IMG/VR virus record: IMGVR_UViG_3300045454_000116
Span: 1 to 54,413 of that record
Length of the DNA: 54,413 nt
Reading direction: 5' to 3' (one strand)
Origin: a virus
A model generated the notes under the pieces. The model did not search any database. It was not told the DNA's origin and saw only the letters and a list, made by a program, of their open reading frames with translations. Below, piece by piece: positions 2,513-31,369 of this stretch (its first letter is position 1; every line of letters begins with the position of its first letter). Made by a program: the position numbers and the translations under genes.

Positions 2513-3041
2513 CGTCATGAAGACTGAGAACGAGATCCGACAGGAGATCGAGGGCCTCCGCAACCTGACCACGGCGCAGCTCAAGGAGAAGTACCGCGAG
2601 GTCTTCGGCGAGGAGTCCCGATCCAATCACAAGCAGTTCCTGTTCCGCCGCATCGCCTGGCGCATCCAGGCGAATGCGTGGGGCGGCCTCTCCGAGCGCG
2701 CACGCCAGCGCGCGCTCGAGATTGCAGACGACGCCGATCTCCGCATCCGCGCGCCCAAGAACTTCCTTCGGGAACCACTCGACGACGGCCGGAACATGGA
2801 GGCGCGCCTGAAGCCGTCGCTCGACCCGCGGTTGCCGCTGCCCGGCACGCCGCTCATTCGCCGCTACCAGGGCAAGGACATCGTCGTCCACGTCCGGCCC
2901 GATGGCGGGTTCGAGTGCAACGGCAGAATCTACACGTCGCTGAGCCGCGCGGTGACGGAGGCGACGGGCACGCGCTGGAACGGCTTTGCCTTTTTCAACC
3001 TCGGCCACCGGCCCGGAGTGAAGCATGGCGAACGGGAATAA
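2496..3041 (+). CDS. DUF2924 family protein
   Basis: About 181 residues. The stretch VFGEESRSNHKQFLFRRIAW and the following R/A-rich helices are the DUF2924 signature, a family found almost always beside phage or transposon-type serine recombinases. The C-terminal half has a small beta-rich region (KDIVVHVRPDGGFECNGRIY, then SLSRAVTEATGTRWNG) that resembles a compact DNA-binding fold. Function is unknown; an accessory role in recombination is plausible from context only. Start is uncertain: ATG 2496 has an AG-rich Shine-Dalgarno, while ATG 2517 (MKTENEIRQ) matches the usual family N-terminus better. The 3' end overlaps the recombinase start by 17 bases. Confidence 0.85.
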   Translation: MGLLVNVMKTENEIRQEIEGLRNLTTAQLKEKYREVFGEESRSNHKQFLFRRIAWRIQANAWGGLSERARQRALEIADDADLRIRAPKNFLREPLDDGRNMEARLKPSLDPRLPLPGTPLIRRYQGKDIVVHVRPDGGFECNGRIYTSLSRAVTEATGTRWNGFAFFNLGHRPGVKHGERE

Positions 3042-4554
3042 CGGCAACGGCGCACCCAAGCCGGTCCGCTGCGCCATTTACACCCGGAAGTCCACCGACG
3101 AGGGGCTGAACCAGGATTTCAACTCCCTCGATGCGCAGAGGGACGCCGGCGAGGCCTACATCCGGAGCCAGGCCGGCGAGGGCTGGACGCTCCTGCCCGA
3201 CCAGTACGACGACGGCGGCTACACCGGCGCCAACATGGACCGCCCGGCGCTGCGCCGCCTGCTGGCGGACATCCAGGCCAGGAAGGTCGATTGCGTGGTG
3301 GTGTATAAGGTGGACCGGCTCAGCCGCTCCATCCGCGACTTCGCCAAGATCATGGAGATCCTGGAGAAGCACGGCGCGACGTTCGTGTCGGTCACGCAGC
3401 AGTTCAACACCACCACCTCCCTCGGTCGCCTCACACTCAACATCCTGCTCTCGTTCGCGCAATTCGAACGGGAGATCATCAGCGAGCGCACGCGCGACAA
3501 ACAGATTCTGGCGCGCAAGCGCGGCAAGTGGACAGGCGGTCATGTGCCGCTAGGTTACAACGTCGTGGACGGCTGCCTGGCCATCAACGAGGAAGAGGCT
3601 GCCCGCGTGCGCCAGGTGTTCGAGTGGTACCTGGAAGGCCACTCCGTCCATGGCATTGTGGCGAAATGCGAGGACCTCGGCTGGCGCAACAAGCAGTGGG
3701 CAACCAAAGAGGGCAAAACGTTCGGCGGCCATCCCCTGCGGAAGTGCCACATCTACACGATGCTGGCGAACCCGCTCTACGCCGCGCGCATCCGCGCCGC
3801 CGACGAGGTCGTGGCCGCCGCACACCCCCGGATCGTCGACGACAACACCTTCGACTTGGTCCAGCAGAAGCTGATGGAGAACACGCGGAATCCCGGCCGC
3901 GGGCACGGGCCCAAATTGGAGGCTCTGTTGCGCGGCCTCCTGTACTGCGCATGCTGCGGGTCGGCCATGTCACCGAGCTACTCGTCAAGTAGGAACCGGC
4001 GCTACCGATACTACGTCTGCCTCCGCACCATGCAGCGGAACGGTGACGGGTGCACAACGCGCGCCGTGTCCGCGCCGGTGGTCGAGGAGGCGGTCATTGA
4101 GAGCGTGCGGCGGTTCGCCACGCAGCCCGAGGTCGTCGAAGCGATCGCCCGGGCGGCGCGCCAGCGGTTGACCGAGGAATTGGGCCGGCATCGCGAGGAG
4201 TTGAAGGCCCTCAATGTCCGTATCCGGAACGCCAAGTCGCAACTCGTGCGGGCGAAGAACCTGGACCCCGACCGGGAGGCCGCGCTCCGCGACGTCGTTT
4301 CGTCGGGAGAAGCCAAAGCGGAGCAACTGCGCGGCCTGGTGGAGCGCGGCGAACGGCTAAGGTTCGATGACCAGATGTTGCGCCAGCGCATGGCGACGTT
4401 TGACGAGGTCTGGAAGACCATGACGATCCAGCAGCAGGCGGCGCTGCTGCGCCAGTTGATCGAACGGGTCGGCTACGACGCCCGCGGCGACAAGGTAAAG
4501 GTCACCTACAACTCGAACGGTATCCGGGAGTTCTGCAAAGGAGCGACAAAGTGA
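3025..4554 (+). CDS. Large serine recombinase / integrase
   Basis: Site-specific recombinase of the large serine (phiC31-like) class, 509 residues. The N-terminal resolvase domain has the catalytic Ser23 in YTRKS, the VVYKVDRLSRSIRDF block and the FEREIISERT helix. A Recombinase domain follows (VPLGYNV onward). The zinc ribbon has Cys308/Cys311 and Cys332/Cys343. A coiled coil then covers about residues 370-450. This domain order is complete, so the enzyme looks intact. It could integrate and excise the element. It lies at the left end of the phage-like region, where an integrase next to attL is expected, but I could not identify att core sequences. It overlaps the upstream DUF2924 gene and the downstream small gene (GTGA overlap), so the three are one operon. 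Confidence 0.95.
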   Translation: MANGNNGNGAPKPVRCAIYTRKSTDEGLNQDFNSLDAQRDAGEAYIRSQAGEGWTLLPDQYDDGGYTGANMDRPALRRLLADIQARKVDCVVVYKVDRLSRSIRDFAKIMEILEKHGATFVSVTQQFNTTTSLGRLTLNILLSFAQFEREIISERTRDKQILARKRGKWTGGHVPLGYNVVDGCLAINEEEAARVRQVFEWYLEGHSVHGIVAKCEDLGWRNKQWATKEGKTFGGHPLRKCHIYTMLANPLYAARIRAADEVVAAAHPRIVDDNTFDLVQQKLMENTRNPGRGHGPKLEALLRGLLYCACCGSAMSPSYSSSRNRRYRYYVCLRTMQRNGDGCTTRAVSAPVVEEAVIESVRRFATQPEVVEAIARAARQRLTEELGRHREELKALNVRIRNAKSQLVRAKNLDPDREAALRDVVSSGEAKAEQLRGLVERGERLRFDDQMLRQRMATFDEVWKTMTIQQQAALLRQLIERVGYDARGDKVKVTYNSNGIREFCKGATK

Positions 4555-4940
4555 AGGACCGCTGCGAAGACGAGATTGCGCTCAAGTGGCCGGCGCGCCA
4601 TGTGGCAGGCAAGCCGAAGAAGACTGCGGTTCCAGCGCCGCCGCGCATTCCCCGGATCACCCGCCTGATGGCGCTGGCCATCAAGTTCCAGGACATGATC
4701 GACCGTGGCGAGGTGAAGGACTACGCCGACCTGGCCCGCCTGGGTTTCGTGACAAGGGCGAGGATCACGCAGATCATGAACCTTTGCCTGCTCGCGCCGG
4801 ACATCCAGGAGGAGATCCTGGAAGGCACTGGGGCGATTGAGCGATCTCTTCGCCGTGTGGGTAGCTTGGCGCAATGGGATCAGCAAAGAGCGGAATGGGC
4901 CAGGACCGCGAGGCGTGGCACTCAGCGCCCGGCGGCCTGA
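4551..4940 (+). CDS. Small HTH-like protein coupled to the recombinase
   Basis: A 129-residue protein starting at a GTG that overlaps the recombinase stop (GTGA), which implies translational coupling. Residues about 38-85 (ITRLMALAIKFQDMIDRG, then VKDYADLARLGFVTRARITQ) look like a helix-turn-helix of the KorB/ParB type, with TRARITQIMNLCLLAPDIQ as the likely recognition region. The N-terminus is basic and proline-rich. Proteins of this layout often follow serine recombinases in mobile elements, and a directionality or regulatory role is possible, but that is inference. The last 19 bases overlap the 3' end of the convergent TIR-like gene, with no terminator visible between them. Confidence 0.75.
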   Translation: MKDRCEDEIALKWPARHVAGKPKKTAVPAPPRIPRITRLMALAIKFQDMIDRGEVKDYADLARLGFVTRARITQIMNLCLLAPDIQEEILEGTGAIERSLRRVGSLAQWDQQRAEWARTARRGTQRPAA

Positions 4941-5413
4941 GCAGCGGCCTCGACCCAACGGGCGAAGCCGTGGTATCCGTCATGCTGGACCCAATCATAG
5001 GTTGGATAGATCTGGGATAGGTAGGTGCGCCGGCCGTTGTCTTCCAGATACAGTTTGTCGAAGGGATTCGCACCGCGAACGTCGGGGCGCCCGTACTTAT
5101 CTTTGATCCCGTCGACATAGATCCCCAACAGGCCGTTACCTCGTTCGAGGCTCTTCTTGATCTCGTACACCACCCACTCTCGGCTGGCAGTTTCGGCACC
5201 GATCAACACTGCGGTCACCGAAGTGTTTTCCAGCCCTCGGTTGATCATCCGCTTGATCGCCTCATCGCCCTGTTTCTTGGCCTCTTCCCACAAGGACGCA
5301 TCCCAGAAGCCGGCGGCCTCCCGGTCAGGCTGTGTCACCCAGCTGTTCCGGACAACATTCGCCCGCCAGATGTCCCGCTCGTAGTGAAAGCTGAAGAAAA
5401 CGCGCCGTGCCAT
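4922..5413 (-). CDS. ThsB-like TIR-domain protein (DUF1863/MTH538 type)
   Basis: A 163-residue single-domain protein. It opens MARRVFFSFHYERDIWR, the first strand and loop of ThsB/MTH538-like TIR domains (TIR_2/DUF1863). REWVVYEIKKSL carries the conserved Glu84 that is the usual catalytic residue in NAD-consuming TIR enzymes. WDASLWEEAKKQGDEAIKRM is the second helix typical of this family. In Thoeris, ThsB senses infection and makes an NAD-derived signal that activates an effector. Here no ThsA is present. The partner is the membrane protein encoded 15 bases upstream, so a TIR sensor/signal maker acting on a membrane effector is the natural hypothesis. The start is supported by an AAAGGAGGG Shine-Dalgarno. 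The 3' end overlaps a convergent gene by 19 bases. Confidence 0.82.
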   Translation of the reverse strand: MARRVFFSFHYERDIWRANVVRNSWVTQPDREAAGFWDASLWEEAKKQGDEAIKRMINRGLENTSVTAVLIGAETASREWVVYEIKKSLERGNGLLGIYVDGIKDKYGRPDVRGANPFDKLYLEDNGRRTYLSQIYPTYDWVQHDGYHGFARWVEAAAQAAGR

Positions 5414-5428
5414 AAGAGAGGCCCTCCT

Positions 5429-5902
5429 TTATCTCGTCCAGAAGCGAATGATGATGGCTGCTGCTACAACCGCCAGGACCACCACTCCGTGGATGGCCAG
5501 GATCGAGTGCGCCCAAAGCGTCTGAAACCAGCTTGGAACCTTCTCCGCATACTCCTTCGTTGACATGGAGAACGGTTCCACCGTACGCAAGGTCTCGGCC
5601 GAGGCAAGCCGGAGCTCATCGTAGAGTTTCCGGAACAGCCGCTCCTGGCGGAGGTAGTAGGCGTCCAACCCCCAGAAGGAGAGCGCCGGCAGCAAGGCGA
5701 TTAAGGCGAACGTGGCGTTCGAATCCTTGGCGGCCAGTGCGAAGAGCGCGGCAGTCAAGGTAACGGTCCAGCCCTTGAGGAGAAAGGAATTGGCCGCCAT
5801 TCTGGTGACAACGCCTTGAATCAGCTCTAAGTGCTTTACAACGTCTTCCGTCATGGTCGGACTCCCGGCTTCTGGCTTGTCCCCGACCGCTACTTGACTC
5901 AT
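5429..5902 (-). CDS. Membrane protein, putative effector partner of the TIR protein
   Basis: About 157 residues with three likely membrane helices: two adjacent ones near the middle of the N-terminal half (GWTVTLTAALFALAA; FALIALLPALSFWGLDAYYL) and one at the C-terminus (ILAIHGVVVLAVVAAAIIIR). A charged helix RQERLFRKLYDELRLASAE follows the first pair. The hairpin plus long helix recalls the SLATT-type effectors of nucleotide-signal immune systems, but I cannot confirm that family. First gene of a leftward operon with the TIR gene. Start choice: ATG 5902 coincides with the predicted transcription start, giving a leaderless message. ATG 5854 has an upstream GGGAG and is the alternative. Membrane disruption on TIR activation is inference. 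Confidence 0.7.
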   Translation of the reverse strand: MSQVAVGDKPEAGSPTMTEDVVKHLELIQGVVTRMAANSFLLKGWTVTLTAALFALAAKDSNATFALIALLPALSFWGLDAYYLRQERLFRKLYDELRLASAETLRTVEPFSMSTKEYAEKVPSWFQTLWAHSILAIHGVVVLAVVAAAIIIRFWTR

Positions 5903-5922
5903 CACGTACTATGTCATATGAT
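5894..5922 (+). promoter_or_regulatory. Sigma70-type promoter of the type I R-M operon
   Basis: -35 TTGACT at 5894-5899 and -10 TATGAT at 5917-5922 are separated by exactly 17 bases. The next good initiating purine, seven bases after the -10, is the A of the HsdM start codon at 5930, so the mRNA is predicted to be leaderless. The promoter overlaps the opposed promoter of the TIR operon. Confidence 0.6.
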
Positions 5923-5936
5923 CCCCAGCATGTCAA
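5908..5936 (-). promoter_or_regulatory. Opposed promoter of the membrane protein/TIR operon
   Basis: Read on the minus strand: -35 TTGACA (5936-5931), a 17-base spacer, then -10 CATAGT (5913-5908). Transcription would begin near 5902, the A of the membrane-protein ATG. It occupies the same DNA as the rightward HsdM promoter, so the two should compete for polymerase. The Xre domain fused to HsdM is an obvious candidate regulator. Confidence 0.5.
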
Positions 5937-7849
5937 CAATTTCGCACCGCGATGCTGATTCCTTCGCGAGTATCATCCGAGAGATCAGGGGACGTCTCGG
6001 CATCTCCCAAGAGAAGCTCGCGGCCCGGCTGCGAGTCTCATTTCCCACCGTAAGCCGTTGGGAAAAAGGGAAAACCGAGCCGGACGGGGCGGTGCGGCAC
6101 GCGGTGACCGAATTTGTGAAGTCTCTCGGGCCGGATTTCGCCGATCTCTACGCCCGCCTGGCTGGGGATGATGTGGAGGCTGTCCGCGTGGCTCCTGCCC
6201 GGCCGGCTCGACGTGGACGGCGCAAGCAGGTGCCCGAGTCTGTCCCTCCCGCCAACAGCAACGGCCAGCTGATGGACAACCGGTCCATGGAAACGCTGCT
6301 GTGGAAGGCGGCCTGCTCCATTCGCGGCGAGAAAGATGCCCCGAAGTTCAAGGACTATATCCTGCCGCTCATCTTCATCAAGCGGCTGTCAGATGTGTTC
6401 GAGGACGAGATCGCCCGGCTCAGCGAGGAATTCGGCGATGAAAAAACGGCGCTCAGCGTCATCGAAGCCGACCCGTCGCTGGTCCGTTTCTACATTCCTC
6501 CCGAGGCGACCTGGCCGGTTGTCAGCGGCCGCAAGAAGTTCGACTGGCCCGCGGACCGCAACCCGCGAACCCTTGGCGAGCAGCTCACCACGACGATCCG
6601 CGCCATCGCGAAAGCGAACCCCAGTCTTCAAGGCGTCATCGACATCGTCGACTACAACGAAACCCGCAACGGCGAGCGGGAAATCAGCGACGAAGCGCTG
6701 TCGCGCCTGATCGAGACGCTCAGCGATCCCCGCTACCGCCTCGGCCTGAACGACGTAGAGCCGGATTTCTTGGGCCGCGCCTACGAATACCTCCTGCGAA
6801 AGTTCGCTGAAGGCCAGGGGCAAAGCGCCGGCGAGTTCTTCACGCCGAAGGAGGTCGGCTGGCTGATGGCGCGGCTGATGGACCCCAAGCAAGGCGAGGA
6901 GGTCTATGACCCCTGCTGCGGCTCCGGCGGACTGCTGGTCAAGTGCCAGTTGGTGCTCAAGGAGCGCGAACAGAGGATCGACCGCCCGCTCAAACTTTAC
7001 GGCCAGGAGCTGACCGGCTCCTCCTTCGCCATCGCGCGGATGAACATGGTGCTGCACGATATGGCCGGCGAGATCGTCCGCGGCAACACCATGACCAATC
7101 CGAAGTTCCTGGAAGAAGGTCGTCTCAAGCGGTTCGACATCGTGGTGACCAATCCGATGTGGAACCAGGACAATTTCGATCCGAAGAGCTACGAGAACGA
7201 CCCGTATGAACGGTTCGAGACTCGCGGCGGCTACGCGCCGGCCTCCAGCGCGGACTGGGCCTGGCTCCAGCACGTCGCGGCGTCCATGAAGGATCACGGC
7301 CGCGCTGCCGTGGTGATCGATACCGGCGCCGCCAGCCGCGGCAGCGGCAGCCAGGGCGAGAACAAGGAAAAGACCATCCGCCGCTGGTTTGTGGAGCAGG
7401 ACCTGGTGGAAGGCGTCATTCTCCTTCCCGACAATCTCTTTTACAACACCACCGCCGCGGGCCTGATCGTTGTCCTAAACGCGGCGAAGCCCAAGAACCG
7501 GCGCGGCCAGGTGCTGCTGGTGAACGCGAGCGCGGAGTTCCGGAAAGGGCGCCCGAAGAACGAACTCACCGAGGAGGGCATCCGCAAGATTGTCCAATGC
7601 TTCCGCGAGTGGAAGGATCAGGAGGGGCTGTGCCGGGTGGTCGACCGACAGCAGATCGCCGAGGCGGACTACAACTTGTCGCCTGCTCGATTTGTACGGT
7701 CGGTATCCACGACAGAAACCGGTGACGTTCAGGCGATATTGGACCAGCTCGCGGATCTGAAGACGGAGTCTTCAAGGTTGGATTCGCAACTGAGCGAAGT
7801 CTTCGAGCGGCTTGGTTATCAGTGGAAAGGAGGAGCCATTGTACCCTGA
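5930..7849 (+). CDS. hsdM: Type I R-M methyltransferase subunit HsdM with N-terminal Xre domain
   Basis: DNA adenine methyltransferase subunit of a type I restriction-modification enzyme, about 639 residues. Residues about 12-65 form an Xre-type HTH (IREIRGRLGISQEKLAARL, then VSFPTVSRWEKGKTEP). A basic linker leads to the HsdM N-terminal helical domain (LWKAACSIRGEKDAPKFKDY). The methyltransferase core has the AdoMet motif at D327 (DPCCGSGG) and the catalytic NPMW at 408-411, a variant of NPPF/Y. Start: ATG 5930 is chosen because it coincides with the predicted transcription start; ATG 5918 lies inside the -10 box. The HTH fusion may let the methylase control its own operon or the opposed TIR operon. 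The 3' end overlaps hsdS by 11 bases. Confidence 0.93.
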   Translation: MSTISHRDADSFASIIREIRGRLGISQEKLAARLRVSFPTVSRWEKGKTEPDGAVRHAVTEFVKSLGPDFADLYARLAGDDVEAVRVAPARPARRGRRKQVPESVPPANSNGQLMDNRSMETLLWKAACSIRGEKDAPKFKDYILPLIFIKRLSDVFEDEIARLSEEFGDEKTALSVIEADPSLVRFYIPPEATWPVVSGRKKFDWPADRNPRTLGEQLTTTIRAIAKANPSLQGVIDIVDYNETRNGEREISDEALSRLIETLSDPRYRLGLNDVEPDFLGRAYEYLLRKFAEGQGQSAGEFFTPKEVGWLMARLMDPKQGEEVYDPCCGSGGLLVKCQLVLKEREQRIDRPLKLYGQELTGSSFAIARMNMVLHDMAGEIVRGNTMTNPKFLEEGRLKRFDIVVTNPMWNQDNFDPKSYENDPYERFETRGGYAPASSADWAWLQHVAASMKDHGRAAVVIDTGAASRGSGSQGENKEKTIRRWFVEQDLVEGVILLPDNLFYNTTAAGLIVVLNAAKPKNRRGQVLLVNASAEFRKGRPKNELTEEGIRKIVQCFREWKDQEGLCRVVDRQQIAEADYNLSPARFVRSVSTTETGDVQAILDQLADLKTESSRLDSQLSEVFERLGYQWKGGAIVP

Positions 7850-9125
7850 CTTTCTCAACACCCTTCCTGGCGAATGGCAAGTGCTTCCGGTCAGTGAGGC
7901 ATGTACGTTCACCGCAAAACCACGCTCCCTTGACCTCGGAGAATACGAAGAGCTGGCCTTTGTACCAATGGATTTGATTCCGACAGGAAGATTGCATTTC
8001 TCGAGTTTCATCCTAAAGAGGCCGGCCGAAATTGCCAGCGGAACGTACTTCGAGGAAGGCGACCTCCTGGTGTCCAAGATCACGCCATGCTTTGAAAATG
8101 GGAAGCAGGGGATTGCCCAGGCGATCCCAAACGGATTCGGAATCGCGACAACTGAAGTGATCCCCCTGAAGCCGCGCGATGGCCTCACCCATCTGCCATT
8201 CATCGCATACTACCTGCTGCATCACGAAGTCCGACATCTAATCGCCGCAGCCATGGAGGGCGCAACGGGGCGGCAGCGACTGCCGAAAGATCTGCTGGCA
8301 CAATGGCCCGTTCCGATACCGCCGATTGACGAACAACGAGTAATTGCTCGTGTGCTCGAAACAATCCAGGCCGCAGCGCACGTCGAGGCGACGATCTCCG
8401 ACAAGCTGGCGGCGCTCAAGTCGGCGACGATGGCGAGGCTGTTCCGGGAGGGGCTGCGCGGCGAGCCGCTCAAGCAGACCGAGGTCGGCGAGATCCCGGA
8501 GAGTTGGGAGGTCAAGCCTGTGTCGGCAGTTTCCGATGCTGTGAGTGGCGGAACTCCCTCAAAGCAGCGGACGGACTGGTGGTGTGGTTCAATTCCGTGG
8601 GCCAGCCCTAAGGACATGAAGAAGCTTCGCCTGCGGGACACCGAGGACCACATTACCCCTGAGGCGGCTGAGGCTGGCTCGCGGATCGTACCAGCAAAGA
8701 CCGTCTTCATCGTAGTGCGCGGCATGGTGCTGGCGAAGGACGTGCCAGTCGCGATCACAGAGGTGCCAATGGCTTTCAACCAGGATATGAAGGCACTGCT
8801 ACCCTCTGAAAGAATCAATCCGGACTTCCTGCTGTACGCCCTTTGCGCCCGCAAATCGGCTCTGATCCAAGAGATCGGAACATCGGCGCATGGAACCCGC
8901 CGTATGTCCGGTTCGTCGATAGACGGACTTCTGATTCCCGTGCCCAAGTATCCCGAAGAGCAGCGGGACATCGCCGAGACACTGCACATGCTGGACCGGC
9001 GTGAAGAGATCTCGAAGGAGCGCGCGCGGTGTCTTCAGGCGCTCTTCTCTTCAACCTTGCACGCGCTCATGACCGGCGCGGTCCGGGTCAAGGACCTCGA
9101 CCTCGCGGAGGTCAGCCATGCCTAG
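7839..9125 (+). CDS. hsdS: Type I R-M specificity subunit HsdS
   Basis: Specificity subunit of about 428 residues with the usual two target-recognition domains separated and followed by conserved helical spacers. The repeats DEQRVIARVLETIQ and EEQRDIAETLHMLDRRE mark the two halves, and the second TRD starts near EIPESWEVKPVSAVSDAV. Each TRD reads half of a bipartite target, which cannot be deduced here. Start: TTG 7839 lies five bases after a strong AAAGGAGG Shine-Dalgarno and within the end of hsdM; the upstream TTG at 7812 lacks one. TRD sequences are less GC-biased than the spacers, consistent with the usual exchange of TRDs. Overlaps hsdR by 8 bases. Confidence 0.93.
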   Translation: MYPDFLNTLPGEWQVLPVSEACTFTAKPRSLDLGEYEELAFVPMDLIPTGRLHFSSFILKRPAEIASGTYFEEGDLLVSKITPCFENGKQGIAQAIPNGFGIATTEVIPLKPRDGLTHLPFIAYYLLHHEVRHLIAAAMEGATGRQRLPKDLLAQWPVPIPPIDEQRVIARVLETIQAAAHVEATISDKLAALKSATMARLFREGLRGEPLKQTEVGEIPESWEVKPVSAVSDAVSGGTPSKQRTDWWCGSIPWASPKDMKKLRLRDTEDHITPEAAEAGSRIVPAKTVFIVVRGMVLAKDVPVAITEVPMAFNQDMKALLPSERINPDFLLYALCARKSALIQEIGTSAHGTRRMSGSSIDGLLIPVPKYPEEQRDIAETLHMLDRREEISKERARCLQALFSSTLHALMTGAVRVKDLDLAEVSHA

Positions 9126-11994
9126 CCTTGCGAGCGAGCGGGCCACAGTCCAGAACCCGCTGGTCGAATACGTCCAGGAGATCGGCTGGGCCTACGTCTC
9201 CCCGGACCAGGCGCTCACGCTCCGGCGCGGCGAAAGCGGGACGCTGTTCTATCAGACACTGCGCGACAAGCTGCTCAGCCTGAACCCCGGCGTGGTGACC
9301 GTCTCCAACGTCGACGATGTCATCGCGCGCATCGAAAGCGTCCGCAACAACATTGAGGGCAATGCCGAGGTGCTGGCCTGGCTCCGCGGTGAACGGTCCG
9401 TGTACTTGGAATCGGAGAAGCGGCAGCGCAACGTCACTCTGATCGACTATGCCCACCCGGCGGAGAACGTCTTCCAGGTGACCGATGAGTGGCAGTACAC
9501 GAACGGCAAGTACCGGAACCGCGCCGACGTCGTGTTTGTGATCAACGGTATCCCGGTGGCGCTGGTGGAGACCAAGAGCGCCGTGAAGAAGGAAGGCATC
9601 GACCAGGGACTGGCGCAGATCCGCCGCTACCACCGCGAGACGCCCGAACTGGTGACCGCGACGCAAATCTTTGACCTGACCCACTTGGTCGACTTCTACT
9701 ATGGCGTGACCTGGAACCTGGACCGCAAGAGCCTGTTCAACTGGAAGGACGAGGAAAAGGGCAATTTCGAGCGCAAAGTGAAGCGATTCTTCGCGCGCGA
9801 GCGGTTCTTGCGTTTCATCGAATCGTGGATCGTCTTCTACAAGAAGGACGACGAACTGCGGAAGATCGTACTGCGGCAGCACCAGACCCGTGCGGTCGAG
9901 AAAGTGGTGGAGCGCGCGCTGGACCCCGAGAAACGGACGGGCCTGATCTGGCACACCCAGGGTTCAGGCAAGACGTTCACGATGATCAAGGCCGCCGACC
10001 TGATCCTGCGGCATCCTGCATTTGAAAAGCCGACGGTGATCCTGCTCGTCGACCGCAACGAGCTCGAAAGCCAGCTGTTTGCGAATCTGGCGGCCTACGG
10101 CCTGGCGCCGGAGATCGCGCGTTCGAAGCAGCACCTGCGGGAGTTGTTGAGGTCGGACTACCGGGGCCTGATCGTCTCGATGATCCACAAGTTCGACAAG
10201 GCCGACGCCGATCTCTGCACGCGGGAGAACGTGTTCGTCCTGGTGGACGAGGCGCACCGCACCACCAGCGGAGACCTGGGCAACTATCTGGTGGCGGCCG
10301 TGCCCAATGCGACCATGATCGGATTCACGGGCACGCCGATCGACCGGATTGCTTACGGCAAGGGCACCTTCAAGGTCTTCGGCAAGGACGACGAGAAGGG
10401 TTATCTGGACAAATACTCGATCGCGGAGTCGATTGAAGACGGGACCACGCTCCCGCTCAACTACACGCTCGCGCCGAACGACATCCGCGTGCCGCGGGAG
10501 CAGTTGGAGAAGGAGTTTCTGGACCTGGCCGAAGCGCAGGGGATCAGCGACATCGAGGAGCTGAACAAGATCCTGGACCGCGCGGTGAACCTGAAGACGT
10601 TCCTGAAGGCCGCGGACCGCGTCGGCAAGGTGGCGCGGTTCGTGGCGCAGCACTTCCGGGAGAACGTCGAGCCGCTGGGCTACAAGGCGTTTCTTGTGGC
10701 GGTGGACCGCGAAGCGTGCGCGCTTTACAAGAAGGCGCTGGACAAGCACCTGCCGCCGGAGTACTCGACGGTGGTGTACACGTCGGCGCACAATGACGAC
10801 GAGGTTCTGGCGGAATATAGGCTGAGCGAGGACGAGGAGAAGCGCGTCCGCCGTGCGTTCGTCAAGCGCGATTCACTACCCAAGATCCTGATCGTGACCG
10901 AGAAACTGCTCACGGGATTTGACGCGCCGGTGCTGTACTGCATGTACCTGGACAAGCCGATGCGCGACCACACGCTGCTTCAAGCCATCGCGCGCGTGAA
11001 CCGTCCCTACGAGGATGACGAGGGCATCAAGAAGCCCGCCGGCTACGTGCTCGACTTTGTCGGCATCTTCGAGAAGCTGGAAAGCGCCCTGGCGTTTGAC
11101 TCTGATGTGGTGGGCAGCGCGATCCAGAACATCGACGTCCTGAAATCTCGCTTCGCGGCGTTGATGGAACAGGCGAAGCCGTTCCTGGAGCTTTGCGCCG
11201 GCCCCATTGACGACAAGGCCGTGGAGCGGGCGATCGCGGTTTTCGAGGACAAGGAGCGCCGGGAGGTCTTCTACAAGCTGTTCCAGGAGTTGGAGACGCT
11301 GTACGAAATCATCTCGCCGGACGTGTTCCTGCGGCCCTACATCGAGGATTACGGCAAGCTGACCGCCTTGTACCAAATCGTCGTCAACGCGTTCTCGAAG
11401 AAGGTGGCGCTGATCCGGGACCTGATGAAGAAGACCGAGGAACTGGTGAAGCGGTCGGCGATCGGCACGGGACTGGAATCGGTGATGAAGCCGGTTCGCA
11501 TCGATGAGAACACGCTGAAGGCGCTGAAGTCGTCCGACAGCGGCGAGCCGCCGAAGGTGATCAACCTGGGCAGGAGCCTGCTGGCCACCATCAAGGACGA
11601 GGGAGAGCAGCAGCCGTTTCTGATTCCGATCAGCGAACGGACAGAGGCGATTCTGGAGGCCTACGACGACCGGCAGTTGAGCACCCAGTCGGCGCTGGAG
11701 CAGTTGGCTCGGCTGATGGAAGAGTATCTCGAGGCCAAGCGGGAGCGGGAGAAAACCGGGTTTGACATCAACACGTTCACGCTGTTCTGGGTGCTGAAAC
11801 AGGCTGGAGCTGCGGATCCTGGCGAACTAGCGCCCAAGGCGGAGGCCGTAATCCGAAAGTACCCCAATTACCGCGACAACGTGGCCGAGGAGCGGCAATT
11901 GAAGGCTGAACTGTACAAGCTGGTCCTGCCGGCCGTGAGCAGGGAATCGATGGTCGCGGTGGTGAAACGCATGCTGGAGTTGCCGCGATCGTGA
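9118..11994 (+). CDS. hsdR: Type I restriction endonuclease subunit HsdR
   Basis: Motor and nuclease subunit, 958 residues, a normal length. The N-terminal PD-(D/E)XK nuclease has Asp137 (RADVVFVING) and Glu151/Lys153 (ALVETKS). The SF2 translocase has Walker A TQGSGKT with Lys285 and a DEAH box at 377-380, followed by GFTGTPI and the later helicase motifs (KILIVTEKLLTGFDAPVLY; QAIARVNRPY). The C-terminal helical region would bind HsdM. All catalytic residues seen are intact, so the system appears functional. Fourth part of a tightly packed operon: it overlaps hsdS upstream and the metallopeptidase gene downstream (GTGA). Confidence 0.95.
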   Translation: MPSLASERATVQNPLVEYVQEIGWAYVSPDQALTLRRGESGTLFYQTLRDKLLSLNPGVVTVSNVDDVIARIESVRNNIEGNAEVLAWLRGERSVYLESEKRQRNVTLIDYAHPAENVFQVTDEWQYTNGKYRNRADVVFVINGIPVALVETKSAVKKEGIDQGLAQIRRYHRETPELVTATQIFDLTHLVDFYYGVTWNLDRKSLFNWKDEEKGNFERKVKRFFARERFLRFIESWIVFYKKDDELRKIVLRQHQTRAVEKVVERALDPEKRTGLIWHTQGSGKTFTMIKAADLILRHPAFEKPTVILLVDRNELESQLFANLAAYGLAPEIARSKQHLRELLRSDYRGLIVSMIHKFDKADADLCTRENVFVLVDEAHRTTSGDLGNYLVAAVPNATMIGFTGTPIDRIAYGKGTFKVFGKDDEKGYLDKYSIAESIEDGTTLPLNYTLAPNDIRVPREQLEKEFLDLAEAQGISDIEELNKILDRAVNLKTFLKAADRVGKVARFVAQHFRENVEPLGYKAFLVAVDREACALYKKALDKHLPPEYSTVVYTSAHNDDEVLAEYRLSEDEEKRVRRAFVKRDSLPKILIVTEKLLTGFDAPVLYCMYLDKPMRDHTLLQAIARVNRPYEDDEGIKKPAGYVLDFVGIFEKLESALAFDSDVVGSAIQNIDVLKSRFAALMEQAKPFLELCAGPIDDKAVERAIAVFEDKERREVFYKLFQELETLYEIISPDVFLRPYIEDYGKLTALYQIVVNAFSKKVALIRDLMKKTEELVKRSAIGTGLESVMKPVRIDENTLKALKSSDSGEPPKVINLGRSLLATIKDEGEQQPFLIPISERTEAILEAYDDRQLSTQSALEQLARLMEEYLEAKREREKTGFDINTFTLFWVLKQAGAADPGELAPKAEAVIRKYPNYRDNVAEERQLKAELYKLVLPAVSRESMVAVVKRMLELPRS

Positions 11995-16876: not shown

Positions 16877-17366
16877 TTCGGAACTTTCGCGCCGGATCGA
16901 CGAGGTGATCCTGGCGCACCTGGAGACGGGCGAGCCCACGGCTGACGAGGTCAGCGCAGAGGTGCTTGCGCGGTACGGAGATCTGGTCGACGAGTACGGC
17001 CGCGAGCTGGCAGTGGCACAGGTCAGATCCATCGTCAGCGACCGCATGAAGAAGACGCTGGCGACCAAGAAGGGACATGCGCTGCAACTGCGGCTGGACA
17101 TGCGCTTCGGAGGTCTGGAGCCCGAGTCCGCGCTTACGTTCCGCGATGACAGCGGAGCCATCCGCTACGTGGCCACGGCGCGGGCGACCGAGGAACATCA
17201 CCGGCGCTACATGGCGCTGCTGCGGGAGCAGATTGAGGCCGACACGGCGCGGCTGAAGGTGGCCGAGTGGTTCTACGCCTGGCTCGAACCGGTCTTCGCC
17301 TCGCATCCGGGCATCACCACGGCCGAGGCGATCGCACGGCTCGCCCCGGAAGGCCAGGCGGTGTAG
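16854..17366 (+). CDS. Hypothetical early phage protein
   Basis: 170 residues, mostly helical and charged, with no recognisable family. The start is a GTG at 16854 six bases after GAGGAGG, inside the 3' end of the ParB-like gene; the TTG at 16839 further upstream would place the Shine-Dalgarno inside the protein. The N-terminal half (SRRIDEVILAHLETGEPTAD) looks like an HTH-type fold and the C-terminal half is helical (ERHRRYMALL-like). A DNA-related role in the early operon is plausible from context only. Confidence 0.65.
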   Translation: MKRPSFHDSELSRRIDEVILAHLETGEPTADEVSAEVLARYGDLVDEYGRELAVAQVRSIVSDRMKKTLATKKGHALQLRLDMRFGGLEPESALTFRDDSGAIRYVATARATEEHHRRYMALLREQIEADTARLKVAEWFYAWLEPVFASHPGITTAEAIARLAPEGQAV

Positions 17367-17461
17367 GGAGAGGCAGTCAGGGGCCTGCCGCAGGCCGGCC
17401 CGAATGGGATCGACACGATCAGAACAAAGCCATTGAAACAGAGGCAGGAGAAGCCAACCGT

Positions 17462-19612
17462 ATGACGCACGACGCATCCCCCATGGTGACCACCTACTCC
17501 ATGTGGAACCAGTTCCGGAACTGCCGGAAGGCGGCCGAACTTCGCTATCTCCAGCATCTGGTGCCGCTCGAACGGGACCGCAACCTGCACTTCGGCTCGC
17601 TGATTCACGAGTGCCTGGAACTCTGGCACGGCCAGCGCGACCTGGCGCGGATGCTTGATCTCATCGACCGCCGCTGCGCGGCCCGCGCGCAGGACGAGGA
17701 TCAGAAACGCGACTGGCACCTAGCCACCGCGATGATGCGGGCCTATGCGGAGCGTTACGCCGAAGAAGAGTTCGAAGTGGTTGCCCTGGAGCACGTCTTC
17801 GAAGGGCCGATTGTGAACCCGGCCACGGGCGCCTCCTCGCGCAGCTTCCGCCTGGCGGGCAAGGTCGATGGGATCGTTCGCATCGACGGCGAGCATTTCA
17901 TTCTCGAACATAAGTGCGTTGCAGGTGACAGCCGCATTTACGATTACGCATCGGCCGAGCTCCTAACGGTTCGCGACATGGCGCGGCGCCAAGTAGAGCC
18001 CGTAGTCCTCGGGATCGACGACCAGGGACGGCTCAGGCATGCGCAGGCAGGCGTTCCACAACCCGAAAAAGTGCGAGATGTCTTCCGAATCGTTCTCAAG
18101 TCCGGCCGAAGCCTCACCGTCTCGGATAACCACCCGGTCCTCACTCATAAGGGCTGGGTGGCCGCGGGGGCACTGAAGAAGGGCGACTGGGCAGCGGTTC
18201 CCCAGGCGTCACAGACTTCACACACGCAGAGCCCGTTTTCCGACGATGAGGTAAAGCTGGCCGGGTACATGTTGGCGGATGGCACTCTGTCGACTCTGGC
18301 GTTCACCAAATCAGACGGGCCTGTGCTCGCTGACTTCCTGGCGGCGGTAAGTCGTCTGGGCATTCGGTTCCACATACAGGGGCGAGAAGACCGCACTCCA
18401 CAGGTGAGATTGTCGCAGGCGCCCGAAAGCCCGGCGCGTCTCCTGATGGAGAGATTAGGCCTCTATGAGGAATGCGCCGAGGAGAAGCACCTTCCGGGTG
18501 TACTCCACTCGATTACGGACCACCAAGTCGGACTTCTGCTCGGCGCACTCTGGAGTACCGACGGTTGCGTGGACGTGTATGAGGAAAAGCGGCCGGATTG
18601 CGCCCGCTCTCAGGAGAAGATTCGGATTGCCTACGCTTCTCGTTCGCATGCCCTCTGTTCAGGAGTCCAGCAGCTTCTCTTGCGGCTCGGCATCAATTCA
18701 TCCGTCACCCGTTCCACGGTTGCGTACCGGCATGAACGGCGACCTACCTTCGTCACGAGAGTGATCGGCCGGCACTCAAAACGCCGATTCCTCGATCTCG
18801 CGATCGCTGGCGCGATTCCCATCCTGAAGTACCCCGAGGTGATCCGGCGGGCGCGGGCGTTGGTGAAGCCCGGAGAAGACCCTCGCATGGCGCCGTCTGA
18901 GCTGCCGGCATGGCTTCAACATGCAGAGGTGTTCTGGGACCCCGTTGAGGTCGTGATCGTCTCTGGGAGGCAGTTGATGTACAACCTGACCGTTCCAGAG
19001 ATCCACAGTTTTGTTGTGGACGACGTAATCACCCACAATACCGCGGCCCAGGTTGACGGCGATTACCTGGAGAAGCTCTGGACCGACTTTCAGATCACGC
19101 TCTACTCGCACTACGTCGAGCAGACGATGGGCATTCCCATCACTGGGATTCTCTACAACGTCCTCGTCAAGGCACGGCTCCAGCAGTCCAGAGGTGAGAC
19201 CGAGGAAGAGTTCGAAGCCCGCCGCGCGGAGCTGCTTGCCAAGTCGAAGACGGGCCGTACGGCCGCGCGACGGCGCGAGCCGGAGTCCGACGAAGATTTC
19301 CAGCGGCGGTTGGCCGAGAAGTACGCGGATCCGGCGATGTTCCACCGCGAGCGGCTGTATCTGTCGCGCGACCGCTTCGACGTGCTGCGCGCCGAGCTGT
19401 GGGAGCTCACGCAGGCCTTCCTCGACGCGCGCCGCCGCGGGGTCTTCTACCAGAACACTTCGTTCTGCTTCAACTACCAGCGGCCCTGTCCCTACTTCGC
19501 CCTGTGCCGGTCCAACGGCAATCCCAACGTGATCGAGAACTTCTACCAGCGCGCCGAGCCCAACGAGGAACTGCGCGTTCTCGCGGCCGGCTCGTCCGAA
19601 CCCGCTTTCTGA
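17462..19612 (+). CDS. PD-(D/E)XK exonuclease (Cas4/RecB-like) interrupted by an intein
   Basis: The precursor is 716 residues; after removal of a 375-residue intein the nuclease is 341 residues. The host protein opens with TTYSMWNQFRNCRKAAELRY, the N-terminal motif of PDDEXK_1/Cas4-like nucleases. The catalytic residues are Asp136 (KVDGIV) and Glu149/Lys151 (ILEHK). The C-terminus has CFNYQRPCPYFALC, probable iron-sulfur ligands together with Cys in the N-terminal RNCRK motif. The intein begins directly after Lys151, so the enzyme should be inactive until splicing. The nuclease probably resects DNA ends for the Sak4-like recombinase encoded next. Start ATG 17462, with AGGAG eleven bases upstream; ATG 17483 is also possible. 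Confidence 0.92.
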   Translation: MTHDASPMVTTYSMWNQFRNCRKAAELRYLQHLVPLERDRNLHFGSLIHECLELWHGQRDLARMLDLIDRRCAARAQDEDQKRDWHLATAMMRAYAERYAEEEFEVVALEHVFEGPIVNPATGASSRSFRLAGKVDGIVRIDGEHFILEHKCVAGDSRIYDYASAELLTVRDMARRQVEPVVLGIDDQGRLRHAQAGVPQPEKVRDVFRIVLKSGRSLTVSDNHPVLTHKGWVAAGALKKGDWAAVPQASQTSHTQSPFSDDEVKLAGYMLADGTLSTLAFTKSDGPVLADFLAAVSRLGIRFHIQGREDRTPQVRLSQAPESPARLLMERLGLYEECAEEKHLPGVLHSITDHQVGLLLGALWSTDGCVDVYEEKRPDCARSQEKIRIAYASRSHALCSGVQQLLLRLGINSSVTRSTVAYRHERRPTFVTRVIGRHSKRRFLDLAIAGAIPILKYPEVIRRARALVKPGEDPRMAPSELPAWLQHAEVFWDPVEVVIVSGRQLMYNLTVPEIHSFVVDDVITHNTAAQVDGDYLEKLWTDFQITLYSHYVEQTMGIPITGILYNVLVKARLQQSRGETEEEFEARRAELLAKSKTGRTAARRREPESDEDFQRRLAEKYADPAMFHRERLYLSRDRFDVLRAELWELTQAFLDARRRGVFYQNTSFCFNYQRPCPYFALCRSNGNPNVIENFYQRAEPNEELRVLAAGSSEPAF
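17915..19039 (+). other. Intein 1 with LAGLIDADG endonuclease (in the Cas4-like nuclease)
   Basis: 375 residues from Cys1 (CVAGDSRIYDY) to the terminal His-Asn, with Thr as +1 residue: a class 1 intein. Block B is LTVSDNHPVLTHKGW and the C-terminal blocks are MYNLTVPEIHSFVVDDVITHN with the penultimate His present. Two LAGLIDADG helices are seen: LAGYMLADGTLS and LLGALWSTDGCVD. Both acidic residues are present, so the homing endonuclease may be active. It is inserted immediately after the active-site Lys of EHK. Third-codon GC is visibly lower than in the host gene, suggesting later acquisition. Confidence 0.93.
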
Positions 19613-19629
19613 AACCCAAGGAGACTCTG

Positions 19630-21432
19630 ATGCCCATTCTTCCCACGACGAAAACCCCACCCAAGCCGAGCCTGTCGGATCTGACCGTGCTGTGTTACGG
19701 GCAAACCAAGATCGGCAAGTGTCTCGGCGGCAACTCTCTGCTGGCCAACCCGCTCAATGGCCGCCTGATGAGGATGGAATCGCTCGTCCGGAATCAATCC
19801 GGGCCGGTGCTGAGCATGAGGGAGGCGGGCCAGTTGAGACCGCTCACGCCCTCGGCCTTTGTCGAAAACGAGCCCGCTCAACTGTACTTGTTGAAAACCC
19901 AAACCGGCCGTTGGATCGAGGCCACCGCGAACCACCCCTTCTTGACCCGGGAAGGTTGGAAGCCGCTGTCGGAGTTGAACCTGAGCGACCGGGTGGCCGT
20001 CGTAGCCGAATATCCGCCGCTGGCGTGTCATGGCGATACCGACGATGAACTGGTCAAGATCATGGCGTATCTGATCGCCGACGGCAGTCTCGCCGGCAAG
20101 GGCGCCATCTTCACCAAGAACGATCCAGCCGTGCGGATGGACTTCGAGGCGGCTGTCGAAGCCAAGGGCGATGAGTGCGTGGAATTCGTCAACCAGAAGG
20201 GGGTTGTCCAGGTACGCGTCCGCGGCAAGCGCGGCCACCGCAACAACGTCATCGGTCACTTGCGGCAGACGGGGCTGCAAGGGCTGCGGTCCCGGGAAAA
20301 GTCCATTCCCGACTTCGTCTTCGGCCTGAAGCGAAGCAAGCAGAAGTTGTTCCTGAACCGGCTGTTCACCTGCGACGGCTCGGTGGAGGCGTCGGGCCGC
20401 ATCAGCTTCAGTTCGACCTCGGTGCGCATGGTTGAACAGGTCCAGCACCTGCTGGCCCGCTACGGGATCGTCTCCCTGATCCGGGACCGGTTTTTGAACG
20501 GCAGCCTCTACGGCGCCGAGCTTTGCATCGCCGCCAAGGACGACGTGCTCCGTTTCATCGACCAGATCGGTTTTTACGGAGAGAAAGCCGTCAAGGCGGA
20601 GGCAGTGCGGCAGAACCTTTACCAAGTGAGGTCCGCCGAAACGCAGCTCGACAGGATCGGTTCCATCCTGTTCGACCGCGTGACCTCGGTCCGCCCCTCG
20701 CGGGTAGCGCCCGTGTTCGACCTCACGGTTGAGGAGACGCACAATTTCGTGGCCAACGACTTTGTCGTCCACAACTCGACCTTCTGCTCTCAAGCCGACG
20801 GCGCCGTCTTTCTCGCCACCGAGCCGGGCCTGAACGCCCTCGAGGTCTTCCAGGTGCCCATCCTCTCCTGGGAGGATCTGCTGGCCGCCTGCGCCGAAAT
20901 CAGCGAGGGCAAGCACCCGTTCAAGACCATCATCGTCGACACCGTCGACAACGCCCATAAGTTCTGCACCGAGTACATCCTGCGGAAGTACAAGGTCGAG
21001 CACGAATCCGACCTGGCCTACGGCAAGGGCTACTCGATCGTCAACAACGAGTTCCAGCGCGTGCTGACGAAACTCGCTTTCCTGCCCTACGGGCTCTACC
21101 TGATCTCGCACGCCAAGGAGATCGAGGTCGAAACGCGCACCGGCAAGTACACGCGCATCGTGCCGACGCTGCCCGAGAAGGCGCGCAAGATCGTGCTCGG
21201 TATGGTCGACATGGTCCTTTACTGCGACCTCGATGTGTCGGCCGGCGCGGAAGGCGAGCAGATCATCCGGCGCGTGATCCGTACCAAGCCGAGCCTCTAC
21301 TACGAAGCCGGCGACCGCACCGGTCGGCTGCCCGAGACGATCGACCTCGACTACCGCAAGTTCCTCGAAGCCTTCCAGGCGGCGGCGGGTGCGCCGCCGA
21401 AACCGCAGGCGGGCCCCAAGCAGGCCAAGTAA
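19630..21432 (+). CDS. Sak4-like RecA-fold ATPase interrupted by an intein
   Basis: The precursor is 600 residues and the mature protein 248 after loss of a 352-residue intein. The joined exteins give YGQTKIGKSTFCSQ, a Walker A motif, preceded by LSDLTVLC and followed by ATEPGLNALEV and TIIVDTVDNAHKFC (Walker B). This matches phage AAA_24/Sak4-like single-strand annealing ATPases, which work with an SSB-like partner in phage recombination. The intein lies between the Lys and Ser of GKS, so unspliced protein cannot bind ATP. Start: ATG 19630 with AAGGAG six bases upstream. It follows the nuclease gene and precedes a DUF669 gene, a typical phage recombination cassette. Confidence 0.9.
   Translation: MPILPTTKTPPKPSLSDLTVLCYGQTKIGKCLGGNSLLANPLNGRLMRMESLVRNQSGPVLSMREAGQLRPLTPSAFVENEPAQLYLLKTQTGRWIEATANHPFLTREGWKPLSELNLSDRVAVVAEYPPLACHGDTDDELVKIMAYLIADGSLAGKGAIFTKNDPAVRMDFEAAVEAKGDECVEFVNQKGVVQVRVRGKRGHRNNVIGHLRQTGLQGLRSREKSIPDFVFGLKRSKQKLFLNRLFTCDGSVEASGRISFSSTSVRMVEQVQHLLARYGIVSLIRDRFLNGSLYGAELCIAAKDDVLRFIDQIGFYGEKAVKAEAVRQNLYQVRSAETQLDRIGSILFDRVTSVRPSRVAPVFDLTVEETHNFVANDFVVHNSTFCSQADGAVFLATEPGLNALEVFQVPILSWEDLLAACAEISEGKHPFKTIIVDTVDNAHKFCTEYILRKYKVEHESDLAYGKGYSIVNNEFQRVLTKLAFLPYGLYLISHAKEIEVETRTGKYTRIVPTLPEKARKIVLGMVDMVLYCDLDVSAGAEGEQIIRRVIRTKPSLYYEAGDRTGRLPETIDLDYRKFLEAFQAAAGAPPKPQAGPKQAK
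19720..20775 (+). other. Intein 2 with LAGLIDADG endonuclease (in the Sak4-like ATPase)
   Basis: 352 residues from Cys1 (CLGGNSLL) to terminal His-Asn, with Ser as +1. Block B is GRWIEATANHPFLTREGW; the C-terminal blocks are VFDLTVEETHNFVANDFVVHN. LAGLIDADG-type helices: IMAYLIADGSLA and FLNRLFTCDGSVE. Class 1. Unlike inteins 1 and 3, its codon use is close to that of its host gene, which suggests a longer residence. Confidence 0.93.
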
Positions 21433-29024: not shown

Positions 29025-29384
29025 ATGGCTGATTCTCCCTCCCTCCAGCCGCGATCGCTTGGAAGGATCGCGGTCTCCACGCCAGGAACACCCGTCCGGG
29101 TGACCTCCGACACCTCGATCCGGGCCCACCGGATCCGCTTCGCCGCCGTCATCGGCGAGACGGGGCGGGTGTTCCTCGGCCTGCAAGGGATGAACAAAGC
29201 CACGGGCGCCGGCGTGGTGAAGGAGTTCTGGCCCACGGGCGCGGGCGGCGGCGTGGCCGACGAGTTGGTGCTCGAGTCCGCTGCTGGCGACCTGCGGCCG
29301 TCGGACTACTACCTCGACGCCAACACGGCGGGCGAGGGGTTGATCGTCGCCTACTGGACCTGGGTGCCGAGCTATGCCAGTTGA
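29025..29384 (+). CDS. Hypothetical phage protein
   Basis: 119 residues. After a polar N-terminus it looks beta-rich (GRIAVSTPGTPVRVTSDTSI; RIRFAAVIGETGRVFLGLQG; GAGGGVADELVLESAAGDLR; GLIVAYWTWVPSY), as expected for a small structural or decoration-type protein. No family recognised. The last 11 bases overlap the start of the ParB-methyltransferase gene, so the two are expressed together. Confidence 0.55.
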   Translation: MADSPSLQPRSLGRIAVSTPGTPVRVTSDTSIRAHRIRFAAVIGETGRVFLGLQGMNKATGAGVVKEFWPTGAGGGVADELVLESAAGDLRPSDYYLDANTAGEGLIVAYWTWVPSYAS

Positions 29385-30834: not shown

Positions 30835-30848
30835 AGGAGTGAATCACC

Positions 30849-31286
30849 ATGCCGGAAGTAGCCACGTCGAACCAGGCCGAACGCGAGTTCGAGACCGGGA
30901 CGGACGAATCGTTCAAGAACACGAGCGCTGCCGCCGGGGCCGCGCACAGCGAGAACCAGCGCGTGACGTTCGCCAACATCAAGCGCACCTACGACGTCTA
31001 CCAGGACCTGGACATCCAGGCCGCGCGGCAGGCTCTCACCGAGCAGACGCGGCTGAACCAGATCGCCTCGCAGGCGCTCCAGAACGCCGTCGAGACGGCC
31101 AACCTGGTATCGAAGCAGGCCGTGCGCCATGGCGACATCGCCATCGACGGCCAGTGGAATCCCATCCAGGCCGGTGCGGGCGACACGCTGACGGCGCGGG
31201 CGGTAGCGATCGACGACGTCTCGCTCAAGGCCATCGGCGCGGTGGTCGCGGCCGCCGTGGCCGACGCGCTGGCCAAGGGCAAGTAG
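30849..31286 (+). CDS. Hypothetical phage protein
   Basis: 145 residues with a strong Shine-Dalgarno (GAAGGAGTG) before ATG 30849. Acidic N-terminus, then a long helical region (TFANIKRTYDVYQDLDIQAA; TEQTRLNQIASQALQNAVET) and an alanine-rich C-terminus (AIGAVVAAAVADALAKGK). Likely a helical oligomer; role unknown. Followed by a good intrinsic terminator, so it ends a transcription unit that began upstream of the first methyltransferase. Confidence 0.65.
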   Translation: MPEVATSNQAEREFETGTDESFKNTSAAAGAAHSENQRVTFANIKRTYDVYQDLDIQAARQALTEQTRLNQIASQALQNAVETANLVSKQAVRHGDIAIDGQWNPIQAGAGDTLTARAVAIDDVSLKAIGAVVAAAVADALAKGK

Positions 31287-31311
31287 TCTTTCTCCTGAAG
31301 GGCGCAAGGAA

Positions 31312-31352: not shown

Positions 31353-31369
31353 CACGGCTCGAATTCCGA

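Follow-up and report, generated by a model that had tools for sequence, protein, structure and literature searches.

The MEM and TIR genes

The IMG/VR virus record IMGVR_UViG_3300045454_000116, a stretch of 54,413 nucleotides that is referred to here as the window, carries a two-gene cassette in which a gene for a small membrane protein, which we call MEM, is followed by a gene for a single-domain TIR protein of the type found in Thoeris systems. The phage genes of the window include those for a terminase gpA, a tail tube protein and a VapE-type primase, and the frame at its left end (1–2097) resembles, as read by eye, a host M13-type peptidase; the MEM–TIR pair is carried by a prophage of a bacterial host. 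An earlier note, made from the letters of this stretch alone, had described a ThsB-like TIR protein with a conserved Glu84 next to a small three-helix membrane protein in the place of ThsA, and had proposed that this membrane protein could be a pore- or membrane-disrupting effector set off by a nucleotide that the TIR makes. Both proteins are as described, and the stretch RQERLFRKLYDELR that was quoted from the membrane protein is present in it.

The TIR protein belongs to the same family as ThsB, the TIR component of Thoeris type I (the coordinates of both genes are in Table 1). It matches the Pfam family ThsB_TIR (E 5.6e-25) and the PADLOC models ThsB (3.4e-66) and PDC-M50B (1.4e-64), and when ten such TIRs are combined into a profile, the solved ThsB1 chains 9b7d and 6lhy are matched at E 3.5e-53. 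The catalytic Glu84 is present and is kept in 64/64 aligned ThsB-type sequences, a set that includes the window's own and some without MEM alongside.

The MEM open reading frame extends open to a GTG at 5905 (5429–5905, minus strand). Translation more likely starts from the ATG at 5854, since homologues begin near there, the PADLOC model aligns from residue 18 of the longer frame onward, and a GGGAG lies in front of this ATG. MEM matches the PADLOC model PDC-M50A (9.6e-46), as do all of the 72 aligned MEM proteins (the window's included), and has no Pfam family above the cut-off and no NCBIfam family. The two genes are on the minus strand with MEM first and 15 bp between them; this spacing, the shared strand, the AGGAGG before the TIR gene and an upstream promoter-like site suggest that they are co-transcribed.

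An AlphaFold2 model of the 157-residue form of MEM, made from 67 sequences, has a mean predicted local distance difference test score of 91.2 and a predicted template modelling score of 0.80. It consists of a long helix (17–60) and two further helices (70–99 and 132–155), and the hydropathy of the protein is compatible with three membrane spans, the first two weakly. Charge and hydropathy suggest a topology with the N-terminus inside, three spans, and the charged stretch 84–130 inside. Four residues are invariant in 72/72 MEM proteins (R34, W45, D80 and E87 in 157-residue numbering; subtract 16 for the 141-residue form), and all map to the helices 17–60 and 70–99. There is no recognisable ligand-binding domain in MEM: neither a macro nor a SLOG domain is found, and the AlphaFold2 model has no other soluble domain.

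The earlier note's statement that ThsA is missing also holds. A SIR2-ThsA profile finds no match in the six frames of the window, and the window proteins scanned against Pfam include no member of a SIR2, macro or caspase family (short or uncertain open reading frames lie outside that scan). Likewise, neither a type II (TM-macro) nor a type IV (caspase-like) effector is present among the ten proteins scanned between 3025 and 14759.

MEM is usually found next to TIR genes

Relatives of MEM are found in viral, plasmid and cellular sequences, and at most of the loci inspected a TIR gene is close by. This is the recurrence elsewhere that the earlier note had proposed to look for, and whose absence would have refuted its proposal. 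All nine relatives retrieved from IMG/VR with MEM have a TIR gene alongside. Among plasmids, 135 of 72,556 records contain a MEM relative; a TIR neighbour is present in each of the five plasmid regions that were opened through MEM (L012–L016, of which L012 and L013 are near-copies), and of two opened through the TIR gene, one (L017) has MEM 181 bp away on the opposite strand and one (L018) has no MEM. In phage records MEM is rare (3/50,697), and the three are Vibrio elements of 14 kb. The one that was opened (PQ189363; L193:1347–2635) has a gene noted as ThsB followed by MEM with a 4 bp overlap, next to a gene noted as an integrase.

A larger set comes from a genome collection, in which the best 80 of 503 stretches encoding a MEM relative were examined with a limit of 500 bp. 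A TIR-superfamily gene lies within this distance of MEM at 69/80 loci, compared with 11/558 control positions, which are positions more than 3.5 kb away within the same 80 loci. Our own profiles account for 65 of the 80, with a ThsB-type TIR only at 41, a second TIR type only at 13, and both at 11, where some of the second TIRs are called by weak matches. Pfam adds four more: a ThsB_TIR (L036), a DUF4062 (L030) and two nucleoside-deoxyribosyltransferase-like proteins (L019 and L094), members of a family that we take to be part of the TIR superfamily; without the last two the count is 67/80. Some of the same loci were used to train the second TIR profile (t2). Pfam results stand behind its calls, below the cut-off in the case of L012, L020, L081, L110, L134 and L069, whereas the partner calls at L039, L041 and L050 were made by our own profiles and phmmer only.

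Samples of three phyla give MEM in 11/297, 6/398 and 6/299 genomes, or 23/994 in all, a figure that takes in three MEM-bearing centre genomes and two marginal matches. Leaving aside the centre genomes (which were chosen for MEM), the marginal L117 (E 3.6e-5) and L118 (E 1e-4), and L124 (the other half of L123), there are 19 further MEM genes, and 15 of these have a TIR gene or a remnant of one within 500 bp. Two damaged cases were kept in the counts to which they belong: L020, whose MEM is broken by a stop, and L127, whose TIR is a fragment. In Escherichia coli, 23 of 5,426 complete genomes carry a MEM–TIR relative that covers 80% or more of the two-gene query; 17 of the places are on plasmids and six on chromosomes. 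The pairing thus spans bacteria and archaea, from Altiarchaeales to Bacteroidota.

The arrangement of the pair is also conserved. MEM precedes the TIR gene on the same strand in 56/58 ThsB-type pairs, and the median pairwise identity among these 58 MEM proteins is 45%. The divergence of MEM correlates with that of the adjoining TIR (Mantel r 0.25, with none of 2000 permutations as high, in a statistic that ignores species relatedness). These counts lead us to reject chance neighbourhood without a common function, to which we give next to no weight: 69/80 against 11/558 control positions, the fixed order and the correlated divergence all stand against it.

MEM and ThsA are alternative neighbours of ThsB-type TIRs

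When the comparison is made from the side of the TIR gene, the 36 ThsB-type loci retrieved from IMG/VR viral contigs fall into 25 with MEM, eight with a SIR2-SLOG ThsA, three with neither and none with both. The query was made of the window TIR and of nine other TIRs that are paired with MEM, and the contigs of these nine reappear among the 25; without these nine contigs the counts are 16/27 with MEM and 8/27 with ThsA, and the share of MEM among the retrieved loci is no estimate for ThsB proteins as a whole. One of the loci with neither partner (L226) starts 26 bp before its TIR gene and is only half seen. The ThsA calls are based on SIR2_2 and STALD domains adjoining the TIR relative in the seven scanned loci, and on our own profile for the eighth (L223, a near-copy of L222). 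No locus with MEM and ThsA together is present among the 237 fetched (163 locus identifiers with MEM, duplicates included, and nine with SIR2-ThsA). Our chief reason for proposing that MEM takes on the role of ThsA is this mutual exclusion, and the alternation of the two next to one TIR family strengthens the earlier note's proposal of a membrane effector.

Two further TIR operons were seen in the course of these comparisons. At L165:170–3296, three TIR genes are followed by a SLOG-patatin phospholipase, which is likely to be another TIR-driven membrane-damaging effector, and at L167:3–1872 a SLATT_3/SLATT_1 membrane protein is flanked by two TIR-type genes.

The TIR partners of MEM are varied and exchangeable

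The TIR proteins adjoining MEM belong to several Pfam families, namely ThsB_TIR, TIR_2 (one of these also SEFIR), TIR, CAP12/Pycsar TIR (at L044 and L084) and DUF4062, which is described in a passage of PMC13174449 as a TIR-like NADase. Some partners contain sensor-type modules, as in the LRR-Roc-COR-TIR protein at L096 and the protein at L030, in which DUF4062 is accompanied by TPR repeats and by a weak match to AAA; the sensor is therefore more likely to reside within the TIR protein.

A tree of 92 MEM proteins was made without L020, L026, L033, L078 and L098; its columns are few and many of its forks are open. At least 16 changes of partner label are needed on this tree, compared with 19.8 in shuffles. 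The labels are thus more clustered than in the shuffles, which suggests that partners are inherited for a time and then exchanged. Two examples have good branch support: the MEM of L057, with a TIR_2 partner, is sister to that of L047, with ThsB (98 in the Shimodaira–Hasegawa-like approximate likelihood ratio test, SH-aLRT), and the MEM of L044, with a CAP12-type TIR, lies inside a ThsB group (SH-aLRT 95). In all three loci the partner is directly downstream of MEM. A different event is seen at L088:5393–6858, where a deoxyribosyltransferase-like gene, MEM and ThsB occur at one locus, and at its sister locus L094:5448–6444, where ThsB is gone and the other two genes remain; since L088 holds all three genes, L094 has lost ThsB rather than exchanged it.

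Possible kin of MEM

The Pfam family 8xMP (PF24838) is a candidate for a relative of MEM. A profile comparison by hhalign gives E 6.3e-5 and a probability of 64.5, with a similar R..ANSF stretch in both; 20 column shuffles give at most 1.1 and the reversed MEM profile 0.9. The Pfam cut-off is not reached, with 2/72 MEM proteins matching (best E 0.059) and no match of the window MEM at E up to 1 among the matches listed. One of four 8xMP loci inspected adjoins a TIR_2 gene (L134:1498–3027), as MEM does. Together these observations suggest that 8xMP may be distant kin of MEM. The Pfam name of the family ('octameric membrane protein family') hints at an octamer, an assembly that could well form a pore, and we treat this as a lead only.

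Other candidates were considered. SLATT proteins, two-span effectors that are likewise small membrane proteins and have one TIR neighbourhood in our set (L167), differ in that the window MEM matches no SLATT profile (E up to 1, among the matches listed), and hhalign probabilities against two SLATT proteins are 0.3 and 0.1; MEM was rejected as a SLATT protein. Kinship with DUF2270 was rejected by sequence (hhalign probability 0.9); a DUF2270 protein in BFVD has a Foldseek probability of 0.99 but an E of 0.5, and some kinship in fold may exist. Among the best 25 of the 34 Pfam families found over the 72 MEM proteins, DUF3278 is matched by 15/72 (best 5.1e-4). Fold matches from VIA, with Z up to 9.8, were set aside because matches of this type are doubtful where long helices are concerned.

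Location in a prophage cargo slot

The pair is placed between a large serine recombinase and a type I restriction system (5930–11994), as listed in Table 1. The HsdM reading frame is open from 5831, and the ATG at 5930 is its likelier start.

Table 1. Genes and putative expression signals at the MEM–TIR locus, in window coordinates
Feature	Position	Strand	Remarks
Large serine recombinase, bounding the cargo slot	3025–4554	plus	Pfam Resolvase 5.4e-38, Zn_ribbon_recom, Recombinase
Small protein behind the recombinase	4551–4940	plus	Convergent with TIR, 19 bp overlap; no Pfam family above cut-off
ThsB-type TIR gene	4922–5413	minus	163 aa; catalytic Glu84 is the E in VVYEIKKS
AGGAGG, ribosome-binding-like site	5423–5428	minus	Before the TIR start; read from sequence
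MEM (PDC-M50A), small predicted three-span membrane protein	5429–5854	minus	141 aa from the likelier ATG
GGGAG, ribosome-binding-like site	5862–5866	minus	7 nt before the MEM ATG; read from sequence
Promoter-like site TTGACT-17-TATGAT	5894–5922	plus	Divergent; reads into hsdM, overlaps the MEM–TIR promoter-like site
Promoter-like site TTGACA-17-CATAGT	5908–5936	minus	TG before second hexamer; reads into MEM–TIR
HsdM with N-terminal XRE-type HTH	5930–7849	plus	N6_Mtase 4.1e-94, HsdM_N 6.5e-23, HTH_3 7.2e-12; divergent from MEM
HsdS, type I restriction system	7812–9125	plus	Pfam Methylase_S 6.2e-26
HsdR, type I restriction system	9118–11994	plus	SWI2_SNF2 9.4e-61, HSDR_N 2.7e-29

The two promoter-like sites are divergent and partly overlap (5894–5936), and the MEM–TIR and hsdM operons may therefore be expressed in turn. 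A consensus scan of 4800–6100 finds two such sites, where shuffled sequence gives 0.3 on average, a count that is no evidence of function. The HsdM protein, with its XRE-type helix-turn-helix, may control both operons.

Seven sister elements in IMG/VR share the recombinase at 77–93% identity, and all seven keep the small gene behind it (tblastn, 54–80% identity). Neither MEM nor TIR is present in the stretches examined of any of the seven; in one of them the stretch ends some 1 kb beyond the recombinase module. Sister element L195 has a different HsdM in the slot (28% identity), and L197 has a Vsr and methylase cargo, as read by eye. The slot behind the DUF2924-like gene, the recombinase and the small gene is filled by other genes in L195–L201 and is probably a cargo hotspot of this prophage group; with the slot variable among sister elements, the MEM–TIR cassette looks like exchangeable cargo.

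Elsewhere in the window there are LAGLIDADG signatures in three genes, encoding a PD-(D/E)XK nuclease (17267–19612), an AAA_24 ATPase (19399–21432) and the terminase large subunit (35908–38901), and the first two of these also have intein splicing domains. Two neighbouring genes at 29374–32980 each fuse ParB_N to an N6/N4 DNA methylase domain.

Relationship to described systems

Both window proteins match the models of PDC-M50, a candidate system in PADLOC, at 15 bp from each other, and we found no difference from it. The pairing is already catalogued under this name, and the earlier note's view of a lightly described module is in this respect overtaken, at least as far as novelty to catalogues is concerned. 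The PADLOC entry has no description, the name PDC-M50 does not occur in the main texts of the literature searched (supplements were outside the search), and no description of a TIR and membrane protein pair of this kind was met in our literature searches. A passage of PMC12988326 characterises the PADLOC candidate systems as unpublished and mostly unvalidated, and one of PMC11811056 likewise terms them unpublished.

The pair is not a Thoeris system by definition, since there is no ThsA. Relative to Thoeris type I, the SIR2-SLOG ThsA is replaced here by the 141-residue membrane protein. According to a passage of PMC12847820, Thoeris messengers include 3'cADPR (a cyclic ADP-ribose, ADPR) acting on a SIR2 effector, His-ADPR on a TM-macro effector, and N7-cADPR on a caspase-like protease. 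The second of these, type II, resembles MEM–TIR in having its effector in the membrane (PMC12847820, same passage); MEM differs in that it matches no macro domain. Thoeris type III is named in a passage of PMC12390725 as the target of a phage inhibitor, and should type III prove to consist of a TIR and MEM, that would be the existing name of the pair.

A proposed membrane effector for TIR signalling

We propose that MEM–TIR is a prophage-borne, Thoeris-like abortive-infection module in which MEM takes the effector role that ThsA has elsewhere and targets the membrane, and we put the probability of this at roughly 0.57. The TIR protein would sense infection and would either turn NAD+ into an ADPR-type signal or, once assembled, bind MEM; MEM, probably as an oligomer, would then open or damage the inner membrane, and the cell would arrest or die before the phage is completed. 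R34, W45, D80 and E87 are near the expected cytosolic face and would be the likely trigger or gate. Action at the membrane has a precedent in the TM-macro effector of known Thoeris systems. The mobile contexts of the pair, which include the prophage cargo slot, plasmids, the Vibrio phage element and E. coli genomes, support a defence module, and the existence of other TIR operons with other effector types (SLOG-patatin and SLATT) also counts in favour of MEM as an effector, as do the sensor-type modules of some TIR partners and the replacement of the TIR family next to a retained MEM at L057/L047 and L044.

Several observations weigh against this proposal. A TIR-superfamily gene is missing within 500 bp of MEM at 11/80 genome loci (L024, L029, L046, L054, L061, L063, L064, L068, L069, L075 and L078), of which L061, L063, L064 and L068 sit within 132–436 bp of the end of their contig, L069 is separated from a TIR_2 gene by a single intervening gene, and L075 has a TIR gene 1.2 kb away; four of the 19 MEM genes of the phylum samples (L109, L111, L125 and L126) are likewise without a TIR. 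In the wide family PF08937, MEM is present in only 2/30 fetched loci, and both of these genes were already in the MEM samples. The position of ThsA varies, being upstream of the TIR gene in five of eight loci and downstream in three, as set against MEM, which is upstream in 56/58; this, and the contribution of nine of the 25 contigs with MEM to the query itself, lowered our confidence from 0.60 to 0.57. No solved relative of MEM is found by sequence at E up to 1, and fold searches are not significant (best E 0.81 in PDB and 0.42 in BFVD). Since MEM has no SLOG or macro ligand-binding domain, its sensing of a messenger is proposed by analogy. Finally, a shared membrane sensor or anchor would equally stay conserved beside varied TIRs. 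As a separate observation on one of the loci named above, the MEM gene at L069:5920–9423 is on the opposite strand to a gene pair encoding an nSTAND1-LRR protein and a TIR_2 protein.

It is the idea of a sensor or anchor that competes most directly with an effector role. MEM would hold the TIR at the inner membrane, feel the phage or membrane damage, and let the TIRs assemble into an NAD+-depleting enzyme, such that the TIR is the killer. The good conservation of MEM (median identity 45% among the 58) beside varying TIR families, its lack of a ligand domain, and the CAP12-type TIR partners at L044 and L084 would fit well, as TIRs of the CAP12 type are known as NAD+ depleters rather than signallers. 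Nonetheless, the known effector ThsA and MEM alternate next to the same TIR family, and some TIR partners have sensor-type modules of their own, and we therefore regard a sensor or anchor as unlikely, if still worth serious attention. The strict neighbourhood and the position of MEM at the front of the operon (56/58) could also be those of an antitoxin-like inhibitor that holds a toxic TIR off until infection removes MEM, antitoxin genes often being the first of their operons. TIR relatives that adjoin ThsA do without MEM, however, and L094 retains MEM though the ThsB of its sister L088 is gone, leaving nothing to inhibit; an inhibitor seems very unlikely. Little more can be expected of a host stress or membrane-signalling module with no anti-phage role, which is improbable to the same degree: it could appeal to the validation that a passage of PMC12988326 says is pending for most such PADLOC candidates, but it is at odds with the patchy spread of MEM (23/994 genomes in three phyla) and with its location on a prophage, on plasmids, on a Vibrio phage element and beside restriction genes.

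Within the effector proposal there is a broader and more tentative version, which we consider rather unlikely to hold as a whole. MEM could serve enzymes of the TIR superfamily in general as their membrane effector. It would be a channel-like protein of 140 residues in which no domain is set apart for sensing, and the invariant residues R, W, D and E near the cytosolic face would read a signal common to ThsB, TIR_2/SEFIR, CAP12 and DUF4062 partners; the TIR would be exchangeable and the effector would stay.

If MEM is the effector, then a tiny membrane protein takes the place of ThsA as the commonest neighbour of the window's TIR family in the retrieved IMG/VR contigs, and a TIR signal would be readable by a protein without a known nucleotide-binding domain. 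Thoeris-type immunity would gain a membrane arm, and one small enough for mutagenesis. Whether different TIR families send one signal that is understood by one receptor would become a testable question, and the relatives in E. coli place the pair in a well-studied species.

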